64,000 nt of DNA. Origin: Marinobacter lipolyticus SM19. Lineage in GTDB: Bacteria; Pseudomonadota; Gammaproteobacteria; Pseudomonadales; Oleiphilaceae. The position numbers and the translations under genes are program-made. Shown in pieces: positions 3,967 to 64,000 of the stretch (within the stretch, counting starts at the first letter, position 1; each line of letters starts with the position of its first letter). The stretch is from contig NZ_KE007317.1 of NCBI RefSeq assembly GCF_000397065.2, positions 128,969-192,968 of the forward strand, read 5' to 3'. The notes under the pieces are model-generated. The model saw only the letters and a program-made list of their open reading frames with translations, was not told the origin of the DNA and ran no database searches.

Positions 3967-5132
3967 CAGCCCATCTCCATGAAGAATAGCGCAGCGATTG
4001 AATCCAGCAGAATGACCATGAAAATCGATTGCACCACACTGGATGTGGTGTGCTCACCGACGGATTGCGCGCTGCCGCTGACCTTGAAGCCTTCAAGGCA
4101 TCCGATGACGGCAATCAGGAAGGCAAAGACCGGCGCTTTGCTGAGACCGACCAGAAAGTGTCTGACGGCAATGTCCTGCTCAACAATGGCCAGGAACTGG
4201 GTTGGGGAAATGTCCAGTACCATGGCGCAGACAGCCGCGCCGCCAATCATTCCGGATATCATCCCGACAAAGGTCAGTATGGGCAGACTGATCATCATTG
4301 CCAGAACCCTCGGAAGCACCAGCAACTCAACCGGACTGAGGCCAAGGGTTCGGATGGCATCCAGTTCTTCGTTCACTTTCATGGCGCCGATGTGGGCAGT
4401 AAAGGAGCTCGCTGTGCGACCAGCCAGCAGAATCGCTGCCAGCAACACGCCAAATTCCCGGAGAAATGAAAAAGCCACCAGGTTGACGGTGTAGATCGTG
4501 GCGCCGAACGATTCCAGCACTGTGGCGCCGAGGAATGCCACGACGGCACCTACCAGAAAGGTTAGTAGTGCCACGATGGGCAGCGCGTTCAGGCCGGTAT
4601 CATGGATCGAAGCCACGAAGGCCGTCATTCGCCAGCGGCGAGGACGCGGCAGGTTGTAGGCCAGCGCAGCCAGTGTTTCACCAATAAAGGCCAGAAGAAG
4701 CCGGAGCAGGTCGTACAGCTCTTCCACCTGTTGACCGGTGACGGCCAGGAATGTCTTCACCGGGCTGTAAGATGGGGGCGCCGGCTCGCTACGATTGCCC
4801 ATGGCGGTTGCTACTGCATGGAGAAGGGCGCGTCTTTCCTCTGTGAGCCCGGAGGCGGTGTCCGCCAAATCAGCCAGTGCCGGTGCACCCAGCAGCTCTG
4901 CCAACAAGGCGGCGCCAGCGGTATCAATGCGGCCAAGACCGGATAGGTCACCTTGCAAGTTGCTGGAGGAATGGGTGCCTAGAATCTGGCGAACTCTCGC
5001 CTGTAATTCGGAATAATGATCGAGAACCCAATCTCCCTGGATCGTCAATTGGCTGTCGTTCGCCAGAATCTCACCACAAACACTGGCTGCGGATGCTGTT
5101 CTGGCGGAACTGGACGGAGATGTTGGCGCCAT
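3963..5132 (-). CDS. MlaE-type permease with N-terminal STAS domain
   Basis: A 389-residue fusion: an N-terminal STAS-like domain (about residues 20-110, with the DLSGLGRIDTAGAALL segment) joined to an MlaE permease (about 130-389) with five or six hydrophobic helices. In E. coli the STAS protein MlaB and permease MlaE are separate; the fused form is known from other MCE systems. It is the first gene of the operon. Upstream DNA to the tRNA genes is only 113 bases, so its promoter must lie there, back to back with the tRNA promoter. Confidence 0.87.
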   Translation of the reverse strand: MAPTSPSSSARTASAASVCGEILANDSQLTIQGDWVLDHYSELQARVRQILGTHSSSNLQGDLSGLGRIDTAGAALLAELLGAPALADLADTASGLTEERRALLHAVATAMGNRSEPAPPSYSPVKTFLAVTGQQVEELYDLLRLLLAFIGETLAALAYNLPRPRRWRMTAFVASIHDTGLNALPIVALLTFLVGAVVAFLGATVLESFGATIYTVNLVAFSFLREFGVLLAAILLAGRTASSFTAHIGAMKVNEELDAIRTLGLSPVELLVLPRVLAMMISLPILTFVGMISGMIGGAAVCAMVLDISPTQFLAIVEQDIAVRHFLVGLSKAPVFAFLIAVIGCLEGFKVSGSAQSVGEHTTSSVVQSIFMVILLDSIAALFFMEMGW

Positions 5133-49682: not shown

Positions 49683-50759
49683 ATGATGGAAGCAATGCAG
49701 ACATTTGATGAAGATAAACTGAATGCCTTTGTAGGGCAGGTACTTGCCGATCTGGGTGGCGCCTACAGCGCTGCTTTGGTCAAGATTGGCGACCGGCTGG
49801 GCCTGTATCGTGAGTTAAACAACAGGGGGCCTGCAACCTCATTGGAACTTTCCGAGCGGACCGGCTATTCCGAACGTTACCTGCGGGAATGGCTGGCGCA
49901 CCATGCAGCATCGAATTATCTCGCGTATGACAGAACGACCAAGCGGTTCCGGTTACCCCCGGAACAGGCCATGGTCTTCGCTGATGAGGACAGCCCGGTT
50001 TACATGATCGGCGGTTTTGAGAATGCGTTCACCACATTCGAGAATGAACCCAAAGTGAGCGAAGGGTTTCGTACCGGTGAGGGGGTCGCCTGGGGCGACC
50101 AGGCTCACTGTATGTTCTGTGCAGTAGCCAAGTTTTTCCGCCCGGGCTATGTCCATAATCTTGTGCAGCATTGGCTTCCTGCGCTGGATGGAATGGTCGA
50201 AAAACTGGAGCGCGGCGCGCGCGTTGCGGACCTCGGCTGCGGTCATGGCCATTCCACATTATTGATGGCGGCAGCGTTTCCGAATTCCACGTTTATTGGC
50301 TACGACTTTCACGGTGGATCTATCGATTCTGCGAATGCGCATCGTGATGAGCATGGTCTGGCCCCGGATCGAGTCCGGTTTGAGCAGGCCACGGCCACGG
50401 ATTTCGACGGCGGTGATTTTGATCTCGTGACCTGCTTTGATGCATTGCATGATATGGGGGATCCGATCGGAACTGCGACCCATGTGCGGAATCAGCTCAA
50501 GCCGGATGGTACCTGGATGGTGGTGGAGCCCATGGCGGCTGATGAACTGAGCGACAACTTTAACCCGGTAGGACGGCTGTTTTACGCGGCTTCAACGAGT
50601 ATCTGTGTACCCACGGCACTGGCACAGAGGACAGGCTTTGCGCTCGGGGCCCAGGCGGGAGAGCGAAAACTCACAGCCGTTATTAAAGAGGGTGGTTTCA
50701 GCAAGGTACGAAGGGCAGCGGAAACTCCCTTCAATATTGTTCTGGAGGTGCGTCCCTGA
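49683..50759 (+). CDS. Class I SAM-dependent methyltransferase with N-terminal winged helix
   Basis: A 358-residue protein. A helical/winged-helix N-terminal region (LELSERTGYSERYLREWLAHHAAS, about 40-80) precedes a Rossmann methyltransferase domain with the SAM motif ADLGCGHGHST near residue 180 and a motif IV-like FDLVTCFDALHD. It resembles the Rv2258c type. The methylated substrate is unknown. The start has two tandem ATGs; 49683 or 49686 may be used. Confidence 0.82.
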   Translation: MMEAMQTFDEDKLNAFVGQVLADLGGAYSAALVKIGDRLGLYRELNNRGPATSLELSERTGYSERYLREWLAHHAASNYLAYDRTTKRFRLPPEQAMVFADEDSPVYMIGGFENAFTTFENEPKVSEGFRTGEGVAWGDQAHCMFCAVAKFFRPGYVHNLVQHWLPALDGMVEKLERGARVADLGCGHGHSTLLMAAAFPNSTFIGYDFHGGSIDSANAHRDEHGLAPDRVRFEQATATDFDGGDFDLVTCFDALHDMGDPIGTATHVRNQLKPDGTWMVVEPMAADELSDNFNPVGRLFYAASTSICVPTALAQRTGFALGAQAGERKLTAVIKEGGFSKVRRAAETPFNIVLEVRP

Positions 50760-56629: not shown

Positions 56630-57883
56630 TCAGTGAGCCACGCCAGCGGCGCCGTGTTCGTCGATTAAGGCCCCGTTGTGGAACCGGAACATGGAGAACG
56701 GCTTGGCCAGTTCGTTGGCCTCGCCCTTCGCCAGGGTGGCAGCGAAAACGTGACCGGAACCGGGGGTGGCTTTAAAGCCACCGGTGCCCCATCCACAGTT
56801 GAAGAAGAGATTTTCAACCGGGGTATCGGAGATGATCGGGCAGGCATCCGGGCAGGTATCGACGATGCCACCCCACTGTCGGTTCATCCGCACCCGGCTG
56901 AACATCGGGAACATTTCGACGATGGCTTGCAGAGTGTGCTCAATGGTCGAGTAGGAGCCCCGCTGGCCGTAGCCGTTATAGCCATCAATGCCGGCTCCGA
57001 TTACCAGATCACCTTTGTCAGACTGGGAGATATAGCCATGGACCTGGTTGGACATGACCACGGTATCCAGGATTGGTCGGATCGGTTCGGATACCAGCGC
57101 CTGCAGCGGGTGGGATTCGATCGGCAGATGGAACCCGGCCATCTTGGCCAGTACACCGGAGTTACCGGCTACAACACAGCCGATACGATCGCCGTAGATG
57201 GCACCGTGCTGTTTGGTATTCACACCAATGGCAGCACCGTCTTCGGTGACGATGTCGTTCACTTCGCACTGCTGGATCAGGTCCACGCCCATGGCATCGG
57301 CAGCGCGGGCATAGCCCCAGGCCACCGCGTCATGGCGGGCCACACCGGCACGGGGTTGCCAGGAAGCGCCGAGAATCGGATAGCGGGCGCTGGAGGAGCA
57401 ATTCAGTATCGGCACAATCTCCTGCACGCCCTGGGTGTCCAGAGCTTCACTGTCGATGCCGTTCAGGCGGTTGGCGTTTACCCGGCGCTGGATGTCGCGC
57501 ATGTCCTGCAGGGTGTGGCCGAGGTTCAGCACGCCTCGCTGCGAGAACATGACGTTGTAGTTCAGGTCCTGGGACATGCCTTCCCAGAGCTTCATGGCAT
57601 GTTCGTACAGCAGTGCTGCTTCGTCCCACAGATAGTTGGAGCGCACGATGGTGGTGTTTCGCGCCGTATTGCCACCGCCCAGATAACCCTTTTCGACGAC
57701 TGCTACGTTGGTGATGTTGTGGACCTTGGCCAGATAGTAGGCCGTCGCAAGACCATGGCCACCGCCGCCAACGATGATGACATCGTATTTCTTTTTCGGT
57801 TTGGGATTGCGCCACACCCGCTGCCAGTTTTCATGGTGGGTCAGGGAGTGTTTCAGCAGTCCGAATCCGGAATATTTCTGCAT
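56630..57883 (-). CDS. soxB: Sarcosine oxidase beta subunit
   Basis: A 417-residue catalytic subunit with the FAD-binding [17 protein letters not shown] and the family's N-terminal KYSGFGLL. It holds the covalent flavin (FMN) and the sarcosine site. First gene of the soxBDAG-purU transcript, which begins at the activator-linked promoter about 110 bases upstream. The 5' leader carries a GTCCCGC/GCGGGAC hairpin (57967-57988). Confidence 0.95.
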
Positions 57884-57999
57884 TGTTAGGTCCTCTTCGG
57901 TGGCAACCGTCTCTCTGGGAAAGCTGCTGGTGTCGCCGTCGGAATCAGCGCTCGTTTTCAGGGCATGTCCCGCCGGTTAAAGCGGGACGGATTGAAAAG

Positions 58000-58064
58000 A
58001 TGTTATGCGTACCACTGCCACATCATCTGCTCGCTCACGACATTCGGGTGAATATTTGCGACAG
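58000..58064 (-). promoter_or_regulatory. Activator motif and promoter of the soxBDAG operon (site A)
   Basis: The 40-nt motif ATCTGCTYGNNCACGACAT-N11-TTTGCGACAG (58025-58064, + strand) has two CGACA half-sites 21 bases apart. On the reverse strand TAACAT (58005-58000) lies 19 bases from the motif, a -10 position. Matching copies stand before glyA and near fdhA. A GlxA/AraC-type regulator gene lies within the cluster. Confidence 0.7.
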
Positions 58065-59485: not shown

Positions 59486-60748
59486 TCAACCGTAAGCCGG
59501 GAAATCCCGACACAACTGGTGGACCTTCTCACGGACTTCTCCGACAACGGGAGTGGCATCGCCATCCAACATGGCGTCGAGAACATCGGCAATCCACCCG
59601 GCCAATTCGCGAGACTCAGGCTCCTTCAGTCCACGAGTGGTAATAACCGGTGATCCGATGCGCAGCCCGGAAGTGACAAACGGCGATTGCGGGTCGTTGG
59701 GTACGGCGTTTTTGTTCACGGTGATGTGCGCGTCACCCAACGCCGCATCGGCTTCCTTACCGGTCAGGCCCTGCTTGACCAGACTGAGGAGAAACAGGTG
59801 GTTCTCGGTGCCGCCCGATACCACTTCATAACCTCGCTCGATCAATACCTCGGCCATGGCCTGGGCATTGCGGACAACCTGTTGTTGGTAGGTCTGGAAC
59901 TCGGGTTCGGCGGCTTCCTTGAACGCCACTGCCTTGGCGGCGATGACGTGCATCAACGGTCCTCCCTGCCCAGCCGGGAAGACTGCGGAGTTGAATTTCT
60001 TGTCCAGTTCCGGCTGGCCCTTTGTCAGGATCAGGCCGCCGCGGGGGCCACGCAGGGTTTTGTGGGTAGTGGTGGTAACCACGTGGGCGTGAGGCAGTGG
60101 GTTGGGGTAAACACCGGCGGCGACCAGGCCGGCAACATGCGCCATGTCTACCATCAGATAAGCGCCGACCGCATCGGCGATCTCACGAAAACGCGCCCAA
60201 TCGACAGTACGGGAATAGGCCGAGAAGCCAGCGACAATCATGCCTGGCTTGTGTTCCTTCGCCAGTGCTTCCACCTGGTTGTAGTCGATCTCACCGGTGG
60301 CCTCGTCAAGGCCGTACTGCACGGCATTGTAGAGTTTGCCGGAGAAGCTGACATGGGCGCCATGGGTCAGGTGGCCGCCGTGGGCCAGGCTCATGCCGAG
60401 GACGGTGTCGCCGGGGTTCAGCAGCGCCATGTAGACGGCGGCGTTAGCCTGGGAACCGGAGTGGGGCTGGACATTGGCATAGTCGGCGCCAAACAGGGCC
60501 TTGGCACGGTCGATGGCCAGTTGCTCCACTTTATCAACGTATTCGCAACCGCCGTAGTAGCGTTTGGCAGGGTAACCTTCGGCGTATTTGTTGGTCAGGC
60601 AAGACCCCTGGGCTTCCATCACCACGGGACTGGTGTAGTTCTCGGAAGCGATCAGCTCCAGATGGTCTTCCTGTCGCGCCGCCTCGTCCTGCATGGCCGC
60701 CCAGAGAGTGTCGTCGTATGAAGAAAGCGTTTTTGTTTTGCTGAACAT
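59486..60748 (-). CDS. glyA: Serine hydroxymethyltransferase
   Basis: A 420-residue PLP enzyme that interconverts glycine plus methylene-THF and serine plus THF. The PLP lysine is Lys230 in [11 protein letters not shown]; the N-terminal ASENYTSP and [13 protein letters not shown] segments are diagnostic. In this setting it takes glycine and a one-carbon unit from sarcosine to serine. It heads glyA-sdaA and has its own activator-linked promoter. Confidence 0.96.
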
Positions 60749-60808: not shown

Positions 60809-60873
60809 ATAGTAGGCCCGATGGCGGATGTTGATCTGCTCGGGCACGACATGGGATCGAGAATTTGCGACAG
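60809..60873 (-). promoter_or_regulatory. Activator motif and promoter of glyA-sdaA (site B)
   Basis: The motif (60834-60873) is ATCTGCTCGGGCACGACAT-N11-TTTGCGACAG with CGACA half-sites 21 bases apart. TACTAT (60814-60809, reverse strand) lies 19 bases from it. Bases before the motif, including TAGGCCCGATGG, are shared with site C, so similarity covers about 60 bases. glyA begins about 55 bases after the likely transcript start. Confidence 0.72.
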
Positions 60874-60909: not shown

Positions 60910-61929
60910 CTATTGCCGGACGTGCCTTGCCTCGGATGGCGTTATTCCGTAGTAGTCCTTGAAACAGTTGCTGAAATGACTACTACTGACAAAGCCGCTT
61001 GCCAGGGAAATGTTCAGGATGCTCCGATTTGTTTGCATCAGCAGGCGTCGGGCATGGACCAGTCTGAGTTCCAGGTAGTAGCGCGAAGGAGACGTGTCCA
61101 GGTGGTTTTGGAACAGTCGCTCCACCTGTCGTCGGGAAATATTGGCACATTCCGCCAGTTCCACTAGGGAGAGCGGTTCTTCGATGTTGGCCCGCATTAG
61201 CGCCAGCAGGGTTTGCAGTGCTTCTGGAAAGGTAGGATCGTCACCCATGTTCAGTGGCATTGGGCCCACCTGCTCGGCGACCTGATCGCAGCTCAAGATC
61301 TCGCGAACCGCCCGAACGATATGTGGATTGTGCAGCAGTTCGCCAATCAACTTCAGCATCATCTCCAGCGTACTGACTGGGCCGGCGCAGGTGGCGTGGT
61401 GGCCCTCAATCTCGTAAGCATTAGTGGAAACCTTCACGTTCGGGAAGTTTTCGCGGACATAGGCATGGTTGTCCGGATGTAGGGCACAGGCATGATGCTC
61501 CATCAGACCTGCCTGAATCAGCGCCACGCCCCCGTTCCATAATCCGCCCAGGCGAATGCCTTTTTGATCGGCTGCCCTCAAGGTGTTGAGCAGGTAAGGT
61601 TCGGGGGCCAGTTGGCTACGGTAGCCGCCGCAGACAATCAACATGTCGACGTGCCCGGGATTGGCCATCAAGGAATCCAAAGTAGTCCCGGTGGACACCT
61701 CTATTCCAAGATCGCTGAGCACGGTCCGGCTTCCGGTCCCGATGGTGAAGTGTACGAATACCGGCTCTGGTGTGATCAGGTTTGTCGTAACCAGCGTATC
61801 AACGGCGGCGGTAAAGGTGACCATGGAAAAATGCTCGCGCAGGATAAAACCGATGCGCAACGGTGTCTCTACACGAGGCTCCCCCGGCAAAGTACCGGGG
61901 TCTTTGGTCTGCGTTGATTTGGTCGTCAT
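60910..61929 (-). CDS. GlxA-family AraC-type transcriptional regulator of the C1/sarcosine cluster
   Basis: A 339-residue protein with a DJ-1/PfpI-like N-terminal domain (LDMLIVCGGYRS, SQLAPEPYL) and a C-terminal AraC DNA-binding domain (LVELAECANISRRQVERL, NISLASGFVSSSHFSNCFKDYYGI). In pseudomonads regulators of this family (GbdR, SouR) activate glycine-betaine or sarcosine catabolism. Location beside glyA, sdaA, sox and fdhA supports a similar role; I cannot tell GbdR from SouR. ATG 61929 is preferred to the upstream in-frame starts. Confidence 0.85.
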   Translation of the reverse strand: MTTKSTQTKDPGTLPGEPRVETPLRIGFILREHFSMVTFTAAVDTLVTTNLITPEPVFVHFTIGTGSRTVLSDLGIEVSTGTTLDSLMANPGHVDMLIVCGGYRSQLAPEPYLLNTLRAADQKGIRLGGLWNGGVALIQAGLMEHHACALHPDNHAYVRENFPNVKVSTNAYEIEGHHATCAGPVSTLEMMLKLIGELLHNPHIVRAVREILSCDQVAEQVGPMPLNMGDDPTFPEALQTLLALMRANIEEPLSLVELAECANISRRQVERLFQNHLDTSPSRYYLELRLVHARRLLMQTNRSILNISLASGFVSSSHFSNCFKDYYGITPSEARHVRQ

Positions 61930-61984
61930 GGGGCTAATCCAAAACACTTTGCCCGAATATAAGCTTCCACAGGCGCTTGGCGAT

Positions 61985-62746
61985 TCACTGGTACTGTCTC
62001 AGGAACCGGTTCGCGTGAATGTCTCGAATGGACTGTAGCACGCCACGCAATTCCAGTTTGGCGATGGCGAGGTTGATTCGGTCCACCAGCTCCTGGGAAC
62101 CCGCGGCTTGCTTGGGTACCAGGATGTGCATTTCCTGTCGTGAGAATACGAAGCTGAGCCGTCGCACGGCCTCCGGGTTGTCAAAGACCGTCTCGATGGC
62201 TTCCTTGGCTGAGAAAATATCCACGGGTATGACATCGACGGCACCGGCCTTTAATAGTTTGAAACAGTGCTTGAGGGTCGCGGGTTGTTCCAGCGTGGTA
62301 CCGGGTTGCTTCAGCAAGTCATTCAGGTCGTGGGTAAAGTAGCCTTGGGGGCGGCAGAAACGATGCCCGGCCAGTCCCTCCCGTTCCGATGTCCGTACAT
62401 GGCCGGCGGTTAAGACGAACGGCACGATGTAATTGGACATCAGGGGGTCCGTATAGAGGAAGCGCTGGGCTCGTTTTTCGTTCAAGTACCAGGGAAACGT
62501 TGCCTGATAGCGTCCTTCTTCGGTATCGGAGAGCAGTGCATCCCAGGTGGGCTGGAACACGACTTCATGCTTCAGCCCGGCCTCCGGCATGATGCGGTCC
62601 ACGATTTCAACGATCATGCCGCGGCTCCTCCAGTCTTCCCCGGTAAAGGGAACAAAATTTCCCGAGGTCACAAGTCGAAAGGGGTCCGCGAATGCGGTGC
62701 TGCTCAGGGTAAATAGCAGGAAATACCAGGCAAGGAACTTCTTCAC
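61985..62746 (-). CDS. Periplasmic amino-acid-type substrate-binding protein
   Basis: A 253-residue exported SBP_bac_3-type protein with signal peptide MKKFLAWYFLLFTLSSTAFA and lobe motifs (FVPFTGEDWRSRGMIVEIV; KHEVVFQPTWDALL). No permease or ATPase is adjacent, so it may be a sensor or orphan binding protein. The start is GTG 62746 with no clear ribosome-binding site; a mini-frame behind GGAGGA (TTG start) ends over this codon and may couple translation. A terminator lies upstream, between it and site C. Confidence 0.75.
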   Translation of the reverse strand: MKKFLAWYFLLFTLSSTAFADPFRLVTSGNFVPFTGEDWRSRGMIVEIVDRIMPEAGLKHEVVFQPTWDALLSDTEEGRYQATFPWYLNEKRAQRFLYTDPLMSNYIVPFVLTAGHVRTSEREGLAGHRFCRPQGYFTHDLNDLLKQPGTTLEQPATLKHCFKLLKAGAVDVIPVDIFSAKEAIETVFDNPEAVRRLSFVFSRQEMHILVPKQAAGSQELVDRINLAIAKLELRGVLQSIRDIHANRFLRQYQ

Positions 62747-62831
62747 AGTCGGTACCCATAGTCATTCGTGGCTGGCAAACGTTCCTCCAGAGGCAGTCCG
62801 TTACCGTCCAGGAAAAACCTGTCGCCGGGAT

Positions 62832-62947
62832 AAAAAAAGGACGGGGTATTCACTTGGGTCCGTAAAGCTGAACCCCGTCAAGTATGGACATGGCTTGGGT
62901 TTTCAATGGTACAAACAAAACCTGATGACTCAGGCGCAGATCAATTT
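62832..62947 (-). ncRNA. Candidate small RNA or attenuated leader
   Basis: A region that starts about seven bases after the -10 element of site C and ends in a hairpin plus seven T. It is about 115 bases long. A 13-codon frame (ATG at 62891, stop at 62850) overlaps the hairpin but has no ribosome-binding site. The short length and strong ends suit either a regulated small RNA or a leader with attenuation ahead of the binding-protein gene. Not seen in any annotation I can name. Confidence 0.45.
62840..62879 (-). terminator. Rho-independent terminator within the site C transcript
   Basis: Reverse strand GACGGGGT and ACCCCGTC form a perfect 8-base stem, extended inwards by TCA/TGA and CTT/AAG with small bulges; CTTTTTTT follows. 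It lies 94 bases upstream of the binding-protein start codon and would end transcripts that begin at site C. Confidence 0.75.
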
Positions 62948-62953
62948 GAAGCC

Positions 62954-63018
62954 ATACTAGGCCCGATGGAGGAAGTTGATCTGCTTGGGCACGACATCGG
63001 AGGAATGATTTGCGACAG
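62954..63018 (-). promoter_or_regulatory. Activator motif and reverse promoter near fdhA (site C)
   Basis: Motif ATCTGCTTGGGCACGACAT-N11-TTTGCGACAG (62979-63018) with CGACA half-sites 21 bases apart. TAGTAT (62959-62954, reverse strand) lies exactly 19 bases from it, as at sites A and B. By the orientation of A and B this site should drive reverse-strand transcription, not fdhA; activation of fdhA in the other direction is possible but unproven. Confidence 0.65.
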
Positions 63019-63171
63019 GGAGTGCGGGGAGAGGGGCAGGGGCGTCCTCGTTTCAGTGTTGTCCGTGTCCTGTGCAAGAAAGAATCTGTCGTATACAGGC
63101 ATGTGCCCAGCGGCCGGGTGTTTAAAGTGGGGAGGCACTTCCACCACAACAGCCTGATGAAGGAAGACACA

Positions 63172-64000
63172 ATGACAAGCAATGCATCCAACCGCGGGGT
63201 GGTGTACCAGGGCCCCGGCCAGGTCGCCATCGAATCCATCGCTTTTCCCAAACTTGCCCTTGGTAACCGACGTTGTGACCACGGCGTGATTCTGAAAGTA
63301 CTGACCACCAACATCTGTGGCTCCGACCAGCACATGGTGCGCGGCCGCACTACTGCACCCTCGGGCCTGGTGCTTGGCCATGAAATTACCGGCCAGATTA
63401 TCGAATGCGGCCGGGACGTTGAGTTCCTTGAAGTGGGCGACATTGTTTCCGTACCCTTCAACATTGCCTGTGGTCGCTGCCGTAACTGTAAGGAAGGCAA
63501 GACCGGCATCTGCCTGAACGTGAACCCCGCCCGTCCCGGCGCCGCCTACGGATACGTGGACATGGGCGGCTGGGTCGGCGGCCAGACCGAGTACGTCATG
63601 GTGCCGTACGCCGACTTTAATCTGCTCAAGTTTCCCGACCCGAACCATGCCATGGAAAAGATCAAGGACCTCACGCTGTTGTCCGACATCTTCCCCACAG
63701 GGTTCCACGGCTGCGTCACCGCCGGCGTCGGCCCCGGTTCTACCGTCTACATCGCCGGTGCGGGTCCCGTCGGCCTGGCTGCGGCTGTCAGTGCCCAGCT
63801 GCTCGGCGCCGCCTGCGTCATCGTCGGTGACATGATCGAAGAACGTCTCGACCAGGCCCGCAGTTTTGGCTGTGAGGCCATCGACCTGAAGCAGGATGCT
63901 GAACTGCCTGAAATGCTCGAGCAAATCCTCGGCGAGCCGGAAGTTGACTGCTTCGTCGACTGTGTCGGCTTCGAAGCTCATGCCTGCGGCCACCATCACC
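63172..64000 (+). CDS. fdhA: Glutathione-independent formaldehyde dehydrogenase, N-terminal part
   Basis: About 276 residues of a zinc alcohol dehydrogenase-type enzyme that runs off the window. Visible: catalytic-zinc region NICGSDQHM and LGHEITG, structural-zinc cysteines in CGRCRNCKEGKTGIC and the NAD-binding GAGPVGLAAA. It oxidises formaldehyde to formate with NAD without glutathione. The fdhA-purU-sox link is known from Pseudomonas. ATG 63172 is preceded by AAGGAAG at a normal distance. No stop is seen before base 64000. Confidence 0.92.
   Translation, partial: MTSNASNRGVVYQGPGQVAIESIAFPKLALGNRRCDHGVILKVLTTNICGSDQHMVRGRTTAPSGLVLGHEITGQIIECGRDVEFLEVGDIVSVPFNIACGRCRNCKEGKTGICLNVNPARPGAAYGYVDMGGWVGGQTEYVMVPYADFNLLKFPDPNHAMEKIKDLTLLSDIFPTGFHGCVTAGVGPGSTVYIAGAGPVGLAAAVSAQLLGAACVIVGDMIEERLDQARSFGCEAIDLKQDAELPEMLEQILGEPEVDCFVDCVGFEAHACGHHH

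Follow-up and report, generated by a model that had tools for sequence, protein, structure and literature searches.

Genes and Features of the Locus

The window analysed here, a stretch of 64,000 nucleotides from Marinobacter lipolyticus SM19, ends within fdhA, and between this gene and a family-3 solute-binding protein gene lies an intergenic region with two activator boxes of opposite orientation (Table 1). One of them has the right orientation to serve fdhA, and boxes of the form TGTCnn-N15-TGTCGT are found at the same position before fdhA in three other genomes (G120, G066, and G024). Similar boxes precede soxB and glyA on the minus strand. The other box, hereafter site C, has the two direct half-sites and the 15-bp spacer of a GbdR/SouR/CdhR-type site and is followed by a -10-like sequence, a leader of about 70 bases, a hairpin, and a run of T. 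The initial annotation had proposed that site C points away from fdhA and toward the hairpin, and an activator-type box with its own -10 does face it. The distances it gave also hold, with 93 bases from the stem to the GTG at 62746 and a transcript of about 115 nt if transcription starts near 62947, a position deduced from the -10. The scan that gave these boxes also gave two partial matches elsewhere in the window (42114 and 21363). A separate consensus scan used a pattern derived from the two window copies, so that the perfect scores of these copies are by construction, and most of its output is noise.

Table 1. Features around site C and its paralogous partner, in window coordinates.
Feature	Position	Strand	Description
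glyA, serine hydroxymethyltransferase	59486..60748	minus	
glyA promoter block	60809..60873	minus	paralogous partner of site C
AraC-type regulator gene ("souR")	60910..61947	minus	GbdR-like; 251 of 480 bits, below the GbdR cut-off
Family-3 solute-binding protein gene (PF00497)	61985..62746	minus	GTG start; 93 bases after stem
Predicted short transcript	62832..62947	minus	start deduced from the -10
Run of seven T (T7)	62838-62832	minus	one C between stem end and T7
Terminator hairpin	62879-62840	minus	GACGGGGT-(24 nt)-ACCCCGTC; 8-bp stem, 24-nt loop with inner 4-bp helix
Relic of glyA start codon	62889..62891	minus	ATG (ATT in G120); codon 1 of the 13-codon frame 62891-62850
Mini-hairpin	62921..62934	minus	CCTGAGTCATCAGG; common to the glyA leader; shortened in G066
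-10-like sequence	62959-62954	minus	TAGTAT; at the end of the 65-bp block
Block copied from the glyA promoter	62954..63018	minus	65 bp, 85% identical; ends with the -10
Site C activator box	63017-62991	minus	TGTCGC-N15-TGTCGT; points left, away from fdhA; 15-bp spacer as in the sites described in PMC5806209
Activator box of fdhA	63066..63092	plus	TGTCCT-N15-TGTCGT
fdhA, glutathione-independent formaldehyde dehydrogenase	63172..63999	plus	extends beyond the window edge

The regulator gene encodes an AraC protein with a DJ-1/PfpI-like domain and was tentatively named souR from its place in the glyA/sox cluster. The CdhR site of Pseudomonas aeruginosa is described as two half-sites in direct repeat, separated by a 15-bp spacer and located ahead of the core promoter, like the GbdR and SouR sites (PMC5806209). 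The likeness of site C to the promoters of these GATase-1-like AraC activators extends from the half-site repeat layout to the genes concerned, those of glycine betaine and sarcosine catabolism, and GbdR and SouR activate these genes in P. aeruginosa (PMC12093977). A candidate activator of site C would be of the SouR/GbdR type. Its binding is a prediction, and the half-sites here are TGTCGC and TGTCGT, unlike the GGTCGC of CdhR. A further difference from the GbdR, SouR, and CdhR promoters is that this one was copied from glyA and runs into a terminator.

Gene order around the element varies among the genomes that carry it. In G120 the leader is followed by the binding-protein gene and glyA, with souR on another contig, while in G066 it is followed by a remnant of the binding-protein gene and then by souR. 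The remnant has arisen by an in-frame internal deletion that leaves 58 codons and keeps the signal peptide and the C-terminal end (L019, around 4100-4180). The souR homolog of G120 (L095) lies beside a TRAP-type binding protein and a gene like the methyltransferase-like gene at 49683-50759 of the window; souR has moved within this cluster. A search with the binding protein gave matches in five of 120 genomes, two of them at only 24-25% identity. In G003 (L020, 2469-4065) the binding-protein gene lacks the leader and immediately follows an etf-like gene, with a BCCT transporter and a souR homolog nearby, a setting that ties the binding protein to dimethylglycine catabolism.

The Hairpin and Its T-Run

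The strong hairpin with seven T described in the initial annotation was recovered on the minus strand (Table 1), with a similar fold in G120 and G066, which represent two other Marinobacter species. Its folding energy is -15.8 kcal/mol in the window sequence, and the same fold reaches -16.1 in G120 and -15.8 in G066. All three copies have the GC-rich 8-bp stem and the directly following T-run of an intrinsic terminator, the run being T7 in the window, T6 in G120, and T5CT3 in G066. Together with the two following bases the hairpin folds at -16.6 (z -2.97), and one of 200 shuffles was equally good; the structure of the whole 136-nt region is not exceptional (z -1.27). The generic hairpin scan permits loops of 3-8, and this hairpin, with its 24-nt loop, is absent from its output. 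A dedicated scan for hairpins capped by a T-run, covering both strands of the 64-kb window, gave three at or below -12 kcal/mol and two at or below -15, and the same scan of 20 simulated sequences at the latter threshold gave 0-2 each (ten in total, mean 0.5). Being only mildly rare when taken alone, the hairpin draws what we judge to be its stronger case from its position between promoter and gene and from its retention in G120 and G066.

The initial annotation had suggested a covariation search in relatives. The hairpin is indeed kept in both, with one one-sided pair change in the stem and no covariation across the three sequences, and covariation in so small a set speaks neither for nor against it. 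A loop of 24 nt is long for an efficient terminator, which counts against the model favoured below.

The 13-codon frame overlapping the hairpin does exist as first noted, although the accompanying statement that the region has no long reading frame was not strictly right, as this short frame forms the end of a 219-codon frame that runs antisense to fdhA (63509-62850). In both relatives the longer frame is closed by a stop in the first few bases of the leader, and for this reason it looks like a shadow frame. A leader peptide was considered and rejected, with frame, start codon, and Shine-Dalgarno sequence all unconserved: a one-base indel shifts the frame, the ATG has become ATT in G120, and Shine-Dalgarno pairing, at -4.3 kcal/mol in four of four glyA copies, is -0.9, -3.0, and -3.0 in the site C copies.

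An Old Duplicate of the glyA Promoter and Leader

A DNA search with the intergenic region returned a second match in the same genome, before glyA. These two 65-bp blocks, each running from the box to the -10 and in the same orientation, share 85% identity. Past the -10 the leader can still be aligned to the glyA 5'UTR, first through a mini-hairpin of the form CCTGA-nnCA-TCAGG and then through AAGCCATGTyCA, the glyA start. The alignment scores are 28 in the window, 48 in G120, and 45 in G066, against maxima of 23, 25, and 22 among 500 shuffles each. The likeness ends after the first glyA codons, and the terminator starts about ten bases further on. When a covariance model (R1) built from the three site C leaders was searched against 124 genomes of the genus, the only other matches were the glyA 5'UTRs of the three genomes with the element (E 0.0076, 0.0050, and 0.0039), and the remaining 121 gave nothing at E<=0.1.

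In a FastTree phylogeny the site C copies of the three genomes group together, separate from those at glyA (support 0.98), which places the duplication before the split of the three species. On the strength of these alignments and this tree, site C and its leader are an old paralog of the glyA promoter together with its 5'UTR and start codon. Such an origin was not foreseen in the initial annotation, whose interpretation is partly supported, in that the box points at the hairpin and promoter, leader, and terminator have stayed together in three species. The promoter has also been relocated in G123 (L022, 3816-3880), where a box, -10, and 5'UTR like those of glyA precede sdaA instead of glyA.

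Conservation and Distribution

We compared the identity of each part of the element with the pooled fourfold-degenerate sites of neighbouring genes by Fisher tests, bearing in mind that the pairs drawn from three related sequences are not independent. The hairpin is identical at 38 of 41 positions between the window and G066 (fourfold sites 552/778, p 0.0009), at 39 of 41 between G120 and G066 (252/365, p 0.0001), and at 38 of 41 between the window and G120 (399/494, p 0.04). Within it, 15-16 of the 16 stem positions and 21-23 of the 24 loop positions agree. The box scores 57/65 in every pair, with p values of 0.002 (window-G066), 0.001 (G120-G066), and 0.12 (window-G120), and each of the three copies has an intact box, -10, and T-run. 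The body of the leader exceeds fourfold identity between G120 and G066 (63/72, p 0.0006) and is close to neutral in the other two pairs (57/74, p 0.17; 63/74, p 0.23); with one pair in three above the baseline, constraint on the leader body is possible. In G066 box, leader, stem, and T-run have been kept although the binding-protein gene is reduced to its 58-codon remnant.

The element is present in three of 124 Marinobacter genomes (those of the window, G120, and G066). A search at E<=1 for more distant relatives hit 96 of the 124, of which 93 had short, chance-like matches. Among 390 genomes of the order, R1 matched in four including its own; the other three matches were weak (E 0.02-0.06), and their 3-kb loci contained none of the eight neighbour proteins of the window locus. 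The exact 19-letter loop pattern was found in two stretches among the named genomes, one in a Marinobacter MAG and one in a Chloroflexi MAG, the latter judged to be a chance match. Against Rfam, the whole window gave only two tRNAs at gathering scores, and a search of positions 62700-63200 at E<=5 gave a single weak lncRNA match, which lies outside the element.

A Proposed Terminated Transcript from the glyA Promoter Copy

Box, -10, glyA paralogy, hairpin with T-run, and conservation in three species can all be read from the genomes themselves, and on this basis we lean, somewhat beyond even chances, toward an untranslated, terminated RNA of about 115 nt made from an activator-driven copy of the glyA promoter, the terminator acting as a fixed insulator or attenuator. 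In this model the duplicated glyA segment, comprising promoter, 5'UTR, and start codon, lies beside fdhA and faces the binding-protein gene. During glycine betaine or sarcosine catabolism an activator of the SouR/GbdR type would bind site C and transcription would start near 62947, most transcripts ending at the T-run as a short untranslated RNA. The terminator, fixed rather than switched, would insulate or attenuate the promoter copy, and read-through alone would reach the binding-protein gene and, in the window species, souR behind it. The model also predicts that in the window species both genes are expressed by read-through from an activator-driven promoter, in which case souR would be weakly self-activated.

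A plain terminator before the binding-protein gene appears to fit best. Like a simple attenuator or insulator, it consists of a GC-rich stem and a T-run in a 5' leader, between promoter and gene. Unlike attenuator leaders, this one is a paralog of the 5'UTR of another gene, and it showed no alternative fold, no ligand domain, and no conserved leader peptide. Against the model stands the fact that the gene behind the terminator varies, being the binding-protein gene and then glyA in G120 and the remnant and then souR in G066, which would also suit a free-standing RNA. If correct, the model would provide a dated example, in three species, of how a short terminated transcript arises, with duplication of a catabolic promoter and 5'UTR, loss of the translation start, and gain of a terminator. 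No report of such an RNA was found in the literature searched, which covered few subscription papers; the search on SouR and small RNA gave nothing relevant by title and abstract, and those on glyA attenuators with sarcosine and on Marinobacter sarcosine oxidase with RNA-seq gave no papers.

Alternative Readings

The element might instead be a relic without function, a promoter copy left by the rearrangement that placed the binding-protein gene between fdhA and glyA, with a terminator of little importance. A leader body that evolves at about the fourfold rate in two pairs out of three, decay of the start codon and Shine-Dalgarno sequence, and restriction to three of 124 genomes of the genus would be expected of such a relic, and yet the box and the hairpin exceed fourfold identity in most comparisons and box, -10, and T-run have stayed intact throughout. 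We regard it as unlikely, while giving it some weight.

A free-standing, trans-acting small RNA under the sarcosine regulator is less probable still. The element has its own promoter and terminator, as an sRNA gene would have, as far as can be told from the DNA, and its retention in G066 despite loss of the binding-protein gene, the high identity of its loop, and the mini-hairpin common to the glyA leader would all agree with a role in trans. What speaks against it is the shortened mini-hairpin of G066 and, for the one 10-base loop complement searched, the lack of enrichment: its sites number four per genome, the element itself included, versus 13, 18, and 13 for the reversed control, and among the non-self sites three are common to the window genome (G000) and G120 and none to all three genomes. 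In having a promoter and terminator of its own and a duplicated origin, such an RNA would resemble bacterial sRNA paralogs such as those of Pxr (PMC5568312); here it is a promoter and 5'UTR, not an sRNA gene, that has been copied. In its most specific form, a sarcosine-induced noncoding RNA from the duplicated glyA promoter and 5'UTR would act as a decoy for a regulator binding the glyA leader, and the one-carbon branch of the pathway would then be adjusted through an RNA that copies the beginning of its own mRNA. We hold this form to be very doubtful.

The initial annotation had also considered a leader whose terminator is bypassed to express the binding protein; in the form of a switched attenuator this was not supported. 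Such a switch, in which the choice between termination and read-through would fall to a ligand, to a protein, or to translation begun at the relic start codon, would be consistent with a terminator that separates a gene from its activator-driven promoter. In the window species and G066 a ribosome at the relic ATG, 12 bases ahead of the stem, could also open the hairpin. The leader pairs with the 5' arm of the terminator, on the other hand, no better than expected by chance, at -8.0, -5.6, and -7.1 kcal/mol (simple duplexes only, with about -16 for the terminator), values matched by 215, 433, and 323 of 500 shuffles. With no Rfam family match, an unconserved frame that begins with ATT in G120, and a weak Shine-Dalgarno sequence in all three copies, switching seems a poor prospect.

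That site C acts chiefly as an additional activator site for fdhA, the leader being a by-product, is scarcely credible despite its retention in three species within the fdhA-side intergenic region, given that it copies the glyA box, -10, and 5'UTR facing away from fdhA and that fdhA has its own correctly oriented box in four genomes, including one where no site C was found. This last genome is G024 (84% complete), in which a BCCT transporter gene lies upstream of the fdhA box. Because fdhA has its own box, kept even there, site C is probably not an fdhA activator site and most likely serves the leftward transcript.

A strong hairpin of the form GTCCCGC...GCGGGAC, with no T-run, also opens the soxB leader, soon after its activator box (57860-58064 of the window), and G003 has one there that is similar, though not identical, to it.
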